From a virus: DNA of 64,000 bases. The stretch is taken from positions 186,001 through 250,000 of IMG/VR virus record IMGVR_UViG_3300027759_000046. One strand, written 5' to 3'. A program made the position numbers and the translations under genes. Positions within the stretch are counted from its first letter, which is position 1; every line of letters starts with the position of its first letter. The notes under the pieces were generated by a model. It saw only the letters and a program-made list of their open reading frames with translations. It searched no databases and had not been told where the DNA came from. Shown piece after piece: positions 1 through 61,907 of the stretch.

Positions 1-16
1 ATTTTCTTCTTTTTTT

Positions 17-103
17 CTAGAGGCAATGGATAAGGATTCCGTAAAATCCTATTCCTGCCAAAAAGTAAATCAGGTTGTTCAACCACTTAGGGTATTTTTC
101 CAT
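17..103 (-). CDS. possible 28-aa membrane microprotein
   Basis: A short reading frame on the minus strand encodes a charged N-terminus followed by one hydrophobic stretch (about residues 9-27), so it could be a single-pass membrane peptide. It lies head-to-tail with the next small minus-strand gene, which supports it slightly. No family is recognised and chance occurrence is possible. Confidence 0.3.
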   Translation of the reverse strand: MEKYPKWLNNLIYFLAGIGFYGILIHCL

Positions 104-24608: not shown

Positions 24609-24616
24609 TATTTATC
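24609..24616 (-). promoter_or_regulatory. late-type GATAAATA promoter box
   Basis: GATAAATA on the minus strand 21 nt before the TTG start at 24587, overlapping the 3' end of the glycosylase gene. Confidence 0.6.
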
Positions 24617-25415
24617 GCTGAACTTCCGGCACCCAGTGAGTTGTGCGCCCGTCTAGAGTCTCTTCACGAACTACAGTATTTCCTTTGGGATCGAGCTTTT
24701 GTGCATAGACTTCAAATTCAAACACGAATTCTCCTTTTTCTCCGCCCAGCCTCTGGTAATTTCTGATACTGGCTCCACCTTGTGCGTATGAAGTTTTCAT
24801 GATTTTCTGAATCCAGTTAAAGAGAACAGCTGTTTCAACTTGATCAATATCTCTGACCAATCTATGCGGCGAAATGCCTGCTCGATAAAGCACTTCGCAT
24901 TTAATATAATTACCTACGCCTGCGCACACTCTCTGATCCATCAGCACCTCAACTATTGTCTTGTTAGGATACTTATTGATTGCTGAATTGAATTTAACTA
25001 GGGTGAACTCTGTATCATTGAGAGCATCTCCACCTAGACTCGCTAATTTCTTGGTGAGCTCAGCTCTATCGTGAGAAAATTTAAGTGTACCGAACCTGCG
25101 TTGATCTACAAAATAGAGTGACCTGGTGTCATCGATACCAATACCAAAGTGCGCGTGCTTATCTGGGTCAGTTGACCAGTAACCGCTCATACCCAATGTA
25201 ATCCACACGGTTGCACCAGTTTCAAGCTCAAGCCACATGAATTTACCCTTGACTCCTCCGCCGACTACTCGGCTTGGCAAGGACACCTCATCAATCCCAA
25301 GTGGTCTTTTTTTAAGAAATCTACCACTAAATACTTGTAACTGTGTTACTTGTGAATCTCCGATCTCTTTTCTGAGATCTTCATACACCCTTCTAACTTC
25401 TGGTCCTTCCGGCAT
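24612..25415 (-). CDS. Fpg/Nei-family DNA glycosylase with zincless finger
   Basis: 267 aa. Starts M-P-E-G-P-E-V-R-R with the catalytic P2/E3. The H2TH region is visible in the middle (V-L-M-D-Q-R-V-C-A-G-V-G-N-Y-I). It removes oxidised bases and cuts the strand by beta/delta elimination. The C-terminal finger lacks all four zinc cysteines but keeps the G-R-T-T-H-W arginine turn, as in the 'zincless' members such as NEIL1 and mimivirus Nei. The gene fits the repair set of the window (UvdE, MBD4-like). Confidence 0.85.
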   Translation of the reverse strand: MPEGPEVRRVYEDLRKEIGDSQVTQLQVFSGRFLKKRPLGIDEVSLPSRVVGGGVKGKFMWLELETGATVWITLGMSGYWSTDPDKHAHFGIGIDDTRSLYFVDQRRFGTLKFSHDRAELTKKLASLGGDALNDTEFTLVKFNSAINKYPNKTIVEVLMDQRVCAGVGNYIKCEVLYRAGISPHRLVRDIDQVETAVLFNWIQKIMKTSYAQGGASIRNYQRLGGEKGEFVFEFEVYAQKLDPKGNTVVREETLDGRTTHWVPEVQR

Positions 25416-27732: not shown

Positions 27733-27765
27733 AAAAAAGAAAAGGAGCATTAAGCTCCTTTTTTT
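27733..27765. terminator. bidirectional rho-independent terminator
   Basis: Arms AAAGGAGC (27741-27748) and GCTCCTTT (27754-27761) with A and T runs on either side, between convergent genes. Confidence 0.85.
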
Positions 27766-27985
27766 ATGTGAAATATGTTGGAAATTTAGAAGAGAGGCTC
27801 TTCAGTATAGTAGGATCATCTTTGCCTTCGTGCATCAGCTCATAGGCATGATCGAATATTTTGATGCTGGTGGCATTACCTATGATTGCATCAATCTTGC
27901 GACGAACAACTGACGTTGGCCCGTTTTCGTGTATCAGCTTAACTAGGTTAGCTGGCTCTGGAATAAAGTACTTGTTGAAACTCAT
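27764..27985 (-). CDS. small hypothetical protein (73 aa)
   Basis: Mostly helical soluble protein with no recognised motif. A TATAAT box lies exactly 6 nt before the ATG, one of the leaderless-type starts, immediately downstream of the terminator of the large non-coding RNA. Confidence 0.6.
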   Translation of the reverse strand: MSFNKYFIPEPANLVKLIHENGPTSVVRRKIDAIIGNATSIKIFDHAYELMHEGKDDPTILKSLSSKFPTYFT

Positions 27986-27991
27986 ATTTTT

Positions 27992-27997
27992 ATTATA
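27992..27997 (-). promoter_or_regulatory. TATAAT box, leaderless spacing
   Basis: GTATAATA on the minus strand, 6 nt before the ATG at 27985 and just behind the ncRNA terminator. Confidence 0.6.
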
Positions 27998-28004
27998 CTC
28001 TGAT

Positions 28005-28476
28005 TAAACAAAAAAGGTTAGCTTTTTAGGGCTAACCTTTGGTATCGTGGGGAACGCGTATGGAAGGATTAGGGTTTACCTTCAATTTGATGCTGAGCTT
28101 GCGTTATAACGACAACCTTCGTACACTCCTGTCAGAGTCGACTCAAAGCAAGTTGGATCCGCTTGAATCACTATCGTGTTAACCACAACAGTACGAGTGC
28201 TTTATCCCACCTAGCAAAGGATTATTCAGCCATTTAACGGGACTATTTTATACCCGTATGCCGATTGCAAAATACCATATATGTATATCAAAACCTTAGA
28301 CTCCAGTGGTTAACTGGTTCAAGTTGACCGTTTGGTCTGCTGGTTTCAGCCAGCGCTTGCGGAGCATCCTCCTAATCTAAACCATTACCTGTTTTACAAT
28401 CAGGTTGTTCTGGCACATACTCGATTGAAGCTCATGACTTCCTCAACCGTTTCCCCTCGTAATTTAAAGAACTTAT
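28005..28476 (-). ncRNA. large structured non-coding RNA (about 470 nt), class unknown
   Basis: A 500-bp stretch without a credible ORF carries a full transcription unit on the minus strand: TATAAT at 28483-28488, inferred start near 28476, and a strong terminator at 28009-28040. A closing helix joins the ends: CGAGGGGAA (28459-28451) pairs with TTCCCCACG (28054-28046) with one mismatch. Internal hairpins are evident, for example GACC-AAAC-GGUC, GCUGG-CUGAAA-CCAGC and CCAGU-UAACC-ACUGG. Size and closed architecture recall large ornate phage RNAs such as GOLLD or ROOL, but I cannot assign a family. RNase P motifs are not complete. Confidence 0.7.
28009..28040 (-). terminator. terminator of the large ncRNA
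   Basis: Ten-bp arms AAAGGTTAGC (28013-28022) and GCTAACCTTT (28031-28040) followed on the minus strand by TTTTTTTG. Confidence 0.85.
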
Positions 28477-28482
28477 GTTAAT

Positions 28483-28488
28483 ATTATA
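28483..28488 (-). promoter_or_regulatory. TATAAT box of the large ncRNA
   Basis: TTATAATA on the minus strand, overlapping the stop region of the 28484-28699 gene and about 24 nt before the closing helix of the RNA. Confidence 0.55.
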
Positions 28489-29244: not shown

Positions 29245-30219
29245 TTAATCTAATACTTTTTCAAAGACTCTTTTATCATCAAACTCCAGGTAGTTTTCAA
29301 GTAATTTACCTGAATTCTGACGATACTGAAGTACTGCAAGATCTTTGGCCTTTGCCTCAACCTCGATATCGAAAGTGAGTCCATAAGTATTTATCTTCTC
29401 ATAAACATGATCGGCATGTGAACGTGCAATAACCGTAGGATCCTCGAACGTTTTCCTACAGCTTGAATAGTGAGTAAGAGGTGTATGGCCGTGCCAAGTA
29501 GTCGAAGCAAGACGTAGCGCGGCTTCCTCAGTAAGATCGCCAGTATTGAAACGGTGATGATGGAAATCGAATGTGATTGGCGTGCCGATTTTGCAATAGA
29601 CTAACGAGTAAAGATCGGCAACTGAATACTGGGCAGCCTTATCGTCGTTTTCGACAACTAGACGAGCTTTTGTATTTGGGTGTAATACTTTAAAATTCTC
29701 GCAGAACCTAGCGGCAGCCGATTCCCTGTCGCCATAGGATCCACCTAGATGAATATTAATTGGGAACTGATAGGTAATAGGTAAACCCATTAAGGTCATA
29801 ATCTCGGCATGCTGGTTAAGATCCTTGATTGTTTTACGAACAACATTTGGATTTGGAGAACACAAGACATCGAACTGGCCTGGATGCATTGAGATACGCA
29901 TGCCATGCTGTAGCGCAAATTCGCCAATTGCTTGCAGATCAGGTAGAATATCGGCAAAGTTAGGTAACTCAGTAATCTCGTACTCGGACATCCATGGAAA
30001 GATATCGCTAGACATACGATACACAAAGATATCGTTTGCAAGATTCCAGCGCAGAATTTTAAGAATGTCCTTGACGTTTTGATGAGCGAGCTCGCCACAA
30101 TATACTTGACCCTTTTCCTGAAAGGTTCTCTTGATCATGCCACGGTTGGCTGTAATCTTTTGGTCGGCTAGTGATAAGTTAATACAGCAGTAGCCAAGTC
30201 TGACGTTAGAATTTTGCAT
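29245..30219 (-). CDS. uvsE: UV-damage endonuclease UvdE/UvsE
   Basis: 324 aa from the ATG at 30219, preferred because a TATAAT box sits 6 nt upstream. TIM-barrel enzyme that nicks DNA 5' of pyrimidine dimers. Family signatures seen: L-G-Y-C-C-I-N, R-M-S-S-D-I-F-P-W, S-M-H-P-G-Q-F, I-N-I-H-L-G-G-S-Y-G-D, V-V-E-N-D-D and D-F-H-H-H-R-F-N. These supply the metal-binding His/Glu/Asp set. It suggests exposure to sunlight or selection for genome repair. Confidence 0.93.
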   Translation of the reverse strand: MQNSNVRLGYCCINLSLADQKITANRGMIKRTFQEKGQVYCGELAHQNVKDILKILRWNLANDIFVYRMSSDIFPWMSEYEITELPNFADILPDLQAIGEFALQHGMRISMHPGQFDVLCSPNPNVVRKTIKDLNQHAEIMTLMGLPITYQFPINIHLGGSYGDRESAAARFCENFKVLHPNTKARLVVENDDKAAQYSVADLYSLVYCKIGTPITFDFHHHRFNTGDLTEEAALRLASTTWHGHTPLTHYSSCRKTFEDPTVIARSHADHVYEKINTYGLTFDIEVEAKAKDLAVLQYRQNSGKLLENYLEFDDKRVFEKVLD

Positions 30220-30225
30220 AGGTTT

Positions 30226-30231
30226 ATTATA
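30226..30231 (-). promoter_or_regulatory. TATAAT box, leaderless spacing (uvsE)
   Basis: TATAAT on the minus strand, 6 nt before the ATG at 30219, fused to the T-run of the upstream terminator (TTTTTTTGTATAATA). Confidence 0.6.
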
Positions 30232-30232
30232 C

Positions 30233-30258
30233 AAAAAAAGGGACCGTAAGGTCCCTTT
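30233..30258 (-). terminator. rho-independent terminator after the exonuclease gene
   Basis: Arms AAAGGGACC (30237-30245) and GGTCCCTTT (30250-30258), followed on the minus strand by seven T. The T-run runs into the uvsE promoter. Confidence 0.85.
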
Positions 30259-61517: not shown

Positions 61518-61523
61518 TATAAT
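61518..61523 (+). promoter_or_regulatory. TATAAT box of the tmRNA gene
   Basis: GTATAATA 15 nt before the mature 5' end at 61539, so the precursor would carry a short leader removed by RNase P. Confidence 0.55.
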
Positions 61524-61538
61524 ACTTTTATACTACAT

Positions 61539-61907
61539 GGGGGTGCTTGGATTTGACGCGGATGGTTCAAGTATGCTCGCACGCCGAGGATGATGCTAAG
61601 ACTCGCTAAAACGTATCAAAACGATAAGTGGAAACACTAACTTCTGGAGCCTAGTTAACGCTGGCGTTAGCACTCCGGTTACTGAAGAGCTTTTAGCTGC
61701 ATAAGTAACCAAGCGGCAACTGCTTGACCGAACCAAAGTTGCAAAACCAGCATGGCGTAGCGGCCAAGTCTAACCGTTACCGACTTTTAGCTCTAAGTCG
61801 TTAAAGAATGAGATAGTTGGTCCAGTTAGAAAATGGGACTAAGCGTGTGAACGAGAGTTTACTCGAAAATCTTGCGGACACGGGTTCGACTCCCGTCACC
61901 TCCACCA
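61539..61907 (+). ncRNA. ssrA: transfer-messenger RNA (tmRNA)
   Basis: 369 nt. The 5' strand GGGGGUG (61539-61545) pairs with CACCUCC (61897-61903) as a 7-bp acceptor stem, followed by A and an encoded CCA (61905-61907). The T arm (GGGUUCGACUCCC) and the U-G-G-A-U-U-U-G-A-C-G 5' segment are canonical. The tag frame runs 61657-61704 after UAGUU and encodes NAGVSTPVTEELLAA, then tandem stops (UAA G UAA). It would rescue stalled ribosomes and tag products for proteolysis. The tag lacks the usual aromatic residue before the final LAA-type tail. A complete tmRNA in a phage is uncommon. Confidence 0.93.

Follow-up and report, generated by a model that had tools for sequence, protein, structure and literature searches.

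The manA motif (Rfam RF01745) was described as a candidate riboswitch, found mainly in marine sequences and cyanophages (Weinberg et al., 2010; PMC2864571), and Rfam classifies it as cis-regulatory, a label that the S-CREM1 paper keeps while giving manA coordinates (PMC9964418). In the open-licence literature searched, no manA is shown to alter downstream expression upon ligand binding, and neither a position in a tRNA array nor a two-core form of manA is mentioned. In tandem riboswitches, of which the glycine riboswitch is an example, the individual aptamers fold by themselves. Other phage RNAs found near tRNA genes include GOLLD and ROOL (PMC12286853), as well as the stable RNAs rnaC and rnaD of T4, which lie beside tRNA genes and measure 119-139 nt (AF158101 annotation).

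Here we describe an RNA encoded in a stretch of 64,000 nucleotides (the window, bases 186001-250000 of a 253-kb virus record). Like manA, it carries P1, P2, P3, P4 with three hairpins, P5 and P6 in identical order, as well as the conserved CUGAAUAA, UAA and GGUA..UAAUCC stretches, and it shares the phage and aquatic origin of the family. It differs in having two cores, P5 helices that cross between the copies, an outer helix (P0) and its own terminator, and it comes from freshwater large phages. An earlier note on this DNA had compared its architecture to that of GOLLD and ROOL. The analogy is a fair one for phage-borne, structured RNAs, since single-core manA likewise lies near tRNA genes, but it does not extend to kinship: neither model matches at E = 10, and the window RNA is smaller and differently structured. 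The position of rnaC and rnaD beside tRNA genes in a T4-like phage also parallels single-core manA, whereas the window RNA sits outside any tRNA array; the two T4 RNAs were rejected as manA relatives, T4 having no manA match.

Locus and kinship to manA

The source of the window RNA is a large freshwater tailed phage. The record's terminase resembles those of large phages (PAU, PTm1, Lak) at 30-38% identity, and the whole record holds 24 tRNA-model matches and one tmRNA (61539-61907, plus strand, with the tag GNTNFWSLVNAGVSTPVTEELLAA and a TATAAT at 61518 preceding it). The RNA is flanked by a DNA-repair pair, an Fpg-type DNA glycosylase (24612-25415, minus strand) and a UvdE-type UV endonuclease (29245-30234, minus strand).

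Between two minus-strand ORFs lies a gap (27986-28483) with no ORF of at least 60 aa on either strand. Its minus strand folds at -136 kcal/mol (z = -3.54 against shuffles), the plus strand more weakly (z = -2.10). Read along the minus strand, a TATAAT box (28488-28483) is followed by a structured region (28459-28046) and a terminator (28040-28013). The earlier note had placed an RNA at 28005-28476, which is correct to a few bases, and had listed a TATAAT box, a strong terminator, a closing helix and the lack of a notable ORF, each of which we found, all on the minus strand. The unit and its manA matches are as follows.

28006-28478, minus strand: whole RNA; ends placed from the TATAAT box and the terminator; kept as a unit in relatives
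28483-28488, minus strand: TATAAT box of the RNA, called from sequence; the motif recurs before phage ORFs and the tmRNA
28227-28448, minus strand: manA match, copy 1, 50.1 bits
28058-28258, minus strand: manA match, copy 2, 40.2 bits, overlapping copy 1
28010-28040, minus strand: intrinsic terminator with T-run, from a terminator scan; the stems of relatives L023 and L032 differ yet pair

At the curated cut-off, an Rfam scan gave no match at the window RNA. Below it, the scan returned manA with E = 5.8e-10, and a manA search of the whole record yielded the two overlapping tandem matches, both spanning model positions 1-192 and both scoring under the curated cut-off of 55.2 bits. The RNA, described in the earlier note as of unknown class, thus matches a known family twice; the Rfam scan that the note had proposed points to manA and to neither GOLLD, ROOL nor RNase P, whose models had no match to the window RNA at E <= 10. 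As regards membership of the family, the model is matched over its full length, with scores below the cut-off, a closing helix other than the single-core one and a position outside a 5' UTR. Because its closing helix encloses two cores and P5 crosses the copies, we read the window RNA as a two-core variant of the manA family rather than a plain member.

Searches further afield returned little. Neither the window RNA nor its 73% identical relative L032 gave a blastn match in isolated phages, and no manA was found in phages with related terminases (PAU, PTm1 and two huge metagenomic phages). Prevotella phage Lak-A2 (MK250019.1, 409519-409706, minus strand) has two adjacent manA matches of 18.5 and 15.6 bits, ~92 nt each, which are probably due to chance. 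Among 120 pattern hits in bacterial genomes, the few survivors of a loose shape filter look like chance or coding sequence; the same holds for the hit in Photobacterium marinum.

Fold and covariation of the two-core RNA

Relatives fall into two groups. Those of the first, retrieved via the neighbouring UvdE gene and DNA patterns, lie in other viral contigs and are 92% (L006), 91% (L022, L023), 89% (L016-L019, L021) and 73% (L032) identical to the window RNA; L100 is a further relative with the same layout. The second, marine group was retrieved with a DNA pattern from copy 2; it has the same double manA match with overlap (its copies scoring up to 65.5 bits) and the same order of parts, and shares little sequence with the window. 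The homologue search suggested in the earlier note thus found relatives at 73-92% identity and a second group of the same layout. Promoter box and terminator are retained in first-group relatives, and both groups have a terminator at the 3' end. Some close relatives lack the RNA, which is therefore dispensable.

In the predicted plan, P0 encloses P1 and P2; P2 encloses P3, P4 (a, b, c), P5A and P6'; and P5A encloses P5B, which holds P6, P3' and P4' (a, b, c). The helices are listed from the 5' end, each split helix with its 3' strand directly below.

28451-28459, minus strand: outer helix P0, 5' strand; both-side changes at two pairs
28046-28054, minus strand: P0, 3' strand; pairs with 28451-28459
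28423-28448, minus strand: P1 hairpin, holding GAGGAAGUC; both-side changes in 6 of 8 pairs
28416-28420, minus strand: P2 (manA closing helix), 5' strand, copy 1; GUAUG/CAUAC, in L032 GUACG/CGUAC
28058-28062, minus strand: P2, 3' strand, copy 2; pairs with 28416-28420
28382-28413, minus strand: P3, copy 1; fully paired and invariant, hence without covariation evidence
28296-28380, minus strand: P4, copy 1, hairpins 4a, 4b and 4c; 7 both-side changes over four helices
28287-28292, minus strand: P5A, 5' strand, copy 1; one compensatory change, more in the second group
28086-28091, minus strand: P5A, 3' strand, copy 2; pairs with 28287-28292
28259-28263, minus strand: P5B, 5' strand, copy 1; one compensatory change, three in the second group
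28110-28114, minus strand: P5B, 3' strand, copy 2; pairs with 28259-28263
28237-28257, minus strand: P6 hairpin, common to both manA matches; no variation in the first group, a single compensatory change in the second
28199-28230, minus strand: P3', copy 2; one compensatory change
28120-28195, minus strand: P4', copy 2, three hairpins; 7 pairs changed on both sides
28063-28083, minus strand: P6' terminal hairpin; one compensatory change

P0 consists of 8 pairs with a single A.A mismatch. In first-group relatives, G-C and A-U replace each other, with both bases changed, at two of these pairs, and the second group, of unrelated sequence, rebuilds the helix from other letters (GAAATC/GATTTC), so that P0 is not a chance pairing; the 9-nt closing helix of the earlier note (28451-28459 with 28046-28054) is borne out by these compensatory switches. 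P2 pairs the beginning of copy 1 with the final part of copy 2. The Rfam model has P5 as a local hairpin; here it forms twice, each time across the copies: P5A reads UUUGAU/AUCAAA (L032 has C-G in place of the last U-A) and P5B reads CGGCA/UGUCG (CGACU/AGUCG in L032), while the second group has ACUUGAAG/CUUUAAGU or, in other letters, UAUUUUCG/CGAAAAUUA for P5A and ACCUUGU/ACAAGGU or ACUUCAU/AUGAAGU for P5B. Since both copies' P5 helices form between the copies, the model is of one nested two-core molecule, not of two separate aptamers in series. The glycine riboswitch likewise has two homologous units in series, but the window RNA would instead share long helices between its units. A first structure with P5 paired within copy 1 was replaced, as the cross-copy P5 pairs fully and varies in a compensatory manner. 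From the loop sequences we also considered that P4a and P4c may touch through a GGU/ACC loop-loop contact, within or between copies, and there is only a weak indication that the two groups carry the two copy types in opposite order.

Over the 92 pairs of the first group, 99.4% of cells are paired, against 93.1 (sd 0.6) after shuffling, a comparison that does not remove relatedness and covers only 7 distinct sequences; pairing falls to 35-45% when partners are slid by 1-3 columns, and 27 pairs are changed on both sides against 9.7 when shuffled. The second group (8 distinct sequences, relatedness again not removed) has 88 pairs, 97.5% paired against 88.5 shuffled and 31-44% slid, with 29 pairs changed on both sides against 14.9. 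Pairing and both-side changes exceed all 500 shuffles in both groups, for a structure partly derived from the same sequences that were counted. The covariation in the proposed helices that the earlier note had asked for is therefore present, and the predicted fold gains separate support from the recurrence of one plan in two groups whose letters differ.

Transcription signals and the setting of single-core manA

The TATAAT box is probably a promoter element of the window RNA, because the motif recurs before this phage's ORFs and tmRNA: six of the eight occurrences of GTATAATA lie at most 60 nt upstream of an ORF, and TATAAT sits 15 nt ahead of the tmRNA gene. A sigma-70 scan of the minus strand found no recognisable -35 box for the window RNA. 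The terminator (28040-28013) has 10 pairs and an 8-nt loop followed by a T-run; the scan that detected it returned 3 terminator-like sites over 1.1 kb, where shuffled sequence gave 0.8. Of the promoter and terminator that the earlier note had assigned to the RNA, the terminator is thus confirmed and the promoter is probable. Elsewhere in this phage, AGTATAATA stands only 4-7 nt before several ORF starts (27992, 30915, 33137 and others, minus strand), which suggests TATAAT-only promoters with very short or absent leaders.

Single-core manA sits between two tRNA genes, at 0-2 nt from either, in three cyanophage lineages: S-CREM1 (manA at 1716-1930 of contig L108; tRNA-Leu ends at 1714 and tRNA-Asn starts at 1929-1930), S-B43/S-H68 (1988-2198; tRNA-Arg ends at 1987, tRNA-Thr starts at 2200) and ACG-2014f (1981-2191; tRNA-Arg ends at 1979, tRNA-Asn starts at 2193). 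Its neighbours in isolates are unrelated to each other (gp23, regA/purL, ferredoxin), and each of 48 contigs with a match, like each cyanophage isolate tested, has one copy. Another motif filed as cis-regulatory, wcaG (RF01761), lies in the S-CREM1 tRNA region (L108, 1246-1343), 47 nt before tRNA-Met, and may deserve the same re-examination.

On marine viral contigs, a promoter (TTGACA-16..18-TATAAT, at most one mismatch per box) stands just upstream of manA in 82 of 96 distinct loci and in 0/96 for a shifted control window. Downstream, 6/100 loci have a tRNA within 40 nt and 15/100 a terminator. In 52/100, neither a terminator nor a tRNA was found and an ORF starts at most 60 nt away, the arrangement expected of a leader, which counts against a stand-alone reading. 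A leader role is thus possible for some single-core copies; for the window RNA it is unlikely. Directly 3' of many marine copies (L135, L144, L149, L174, L180, L182 and L199) we observed a conserved hairpin, GACCTAAGATGCAACT...AGT(G/C)GGGCAGATGGTC, often then a T-run; this hairpin may represent a specialised terminator or a further small RNA motif.

Role of the window RNA and its family

The structure, the kinship to manA, the terminator and the independence from the downstream gene are shown by the analysis. We favour with good confidence the explanation that the locus is a stand-alone non-coding RNA gene of a large tailed phage, a two-core manA variant with its own promoter and terminator and a trans-acting product. 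The manA core (P3-P4-P5-P6) would have been duplicated in tandem inside one P1/P2 frame, with P0 as an extra outer helix, and the two P5 hairpins would have opened and re-paired across the copies as P5A and P5B, giving a nested, roughly two-fold RNA. The RNA would be transcribed from its own promoter, end at its own terminator and, probably, act in trans as a structural RNA during infection. Most likely it would serve as a scaffold with two equivalent faces, for which the candidate partners are a protein, a tRNA-processing or translation component, a tRNA, another RNA or a second copy of itself. The sole basis for a link to translation is that single-core relatives sit inside phage tRNA arrays, as GOLLD and ROOL do near tRNA genes. 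We give moderate weight only to the view of the fused, strand-swapped cores as a domain-swapped dimer that arose by gene duplication.

A special case of this explanation is that the RNA assembles with itself into a homo-oligomer like GOLLD and ROOL, its two cores being pre-joined halves. The two-fold layout with strand swapping is in line with such assembly, as are the phage origin and the tRNA-array position of relatives, but we identified no intermolecular contact, there is no sequence kinship with GOLLD or ROOL, and the RNA measures ~470 nt where many GOLLD RNAs exceed 800 nt (PMC12286853); we think it unlikely.

Somewhat less likely still is a tandem riboswitch, in which a pair of aptamers arranged in series would act on the terminator at 28040-28013 and thereby govern the small gene downstream. 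The features concerned, both outside the RNA, are these.

27764-27985, minus strand: small downstream gene, starting MSFNKYFIPEPAN...; no family match
27992-27997, minus strand: TATAAT of the downstream gene, six bases before the ORF; also in L025

Both Rfam and the paper that first described manA class it as cis-regulatory, the terminator stands between RNA and gene, and the same small gene follows the RNA in the window's relatives. However, a TATAAT belonging to the gene itself lies beyond the terminator, and a 271-kb relative without a manA match (L025) keeps both gene and box with no RNA in front, so we take the window RNA to be independent of this gene and not its leader. Against a riboswitch also stand the P5 helices formed between the copies, which are thus not separate aptamers, and the single-core relatives between tRNA genes, with no reading frame following. 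An opposite-strand gene encoding a protein of 360-380 aa is found beside the RNA or in its place (L025, 9595-10737; L100, 1338-2420), and since it occupies the adjoining slot or that of the RNA, this genomic spot is one that exchanges accessory genes.

The scores below the cut-off and the close relatives without the RNA would fit a decayed remnant, a manA pair that has lost its fold and activity, which we regard as very improbable, given that almost all pairs are preserved by compensatory changes throughout the relatives and that promoter box and terminator are retained. That the RNA is a diverged RNase P RNA, or some other catalytic RNA of tRNA processing, can practically be discounted: the resemblance of GAGGAAGUC to RNase P conserved region I, put forward in the earlier note, falls within the P1 hairpin, where the stem letters vary freely, and no RNase P family matches at E <= 10.

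Having weighed these alternatives, we return to the stand-alone, trans-acting RNA and its relatives. The window RNA is free-standing and fuses two manA cores, which suggests that phage manA RNAs of this kind work independently and not as switches. More tentatively, and with clear doubt, manA RNAs in general may be not riboswitches but widespread trans-acting phage RNAs, excised from tRNA arrays or made from their own promoters and working as a (domain-swapped) dimer, of which the window RNA and its marine counterpart would be covalently fused forms that reveal the active arrangement. The strand-swapped two-core fold predicts that single-core manA dimerises through P5. For a motif that has been an unsolved riboswitch candidate since 2010, the tRNA-flanked single-core copies and the terminator-bearing two-core copies shift the question from its ligand to its role and assembly in the infected cell.
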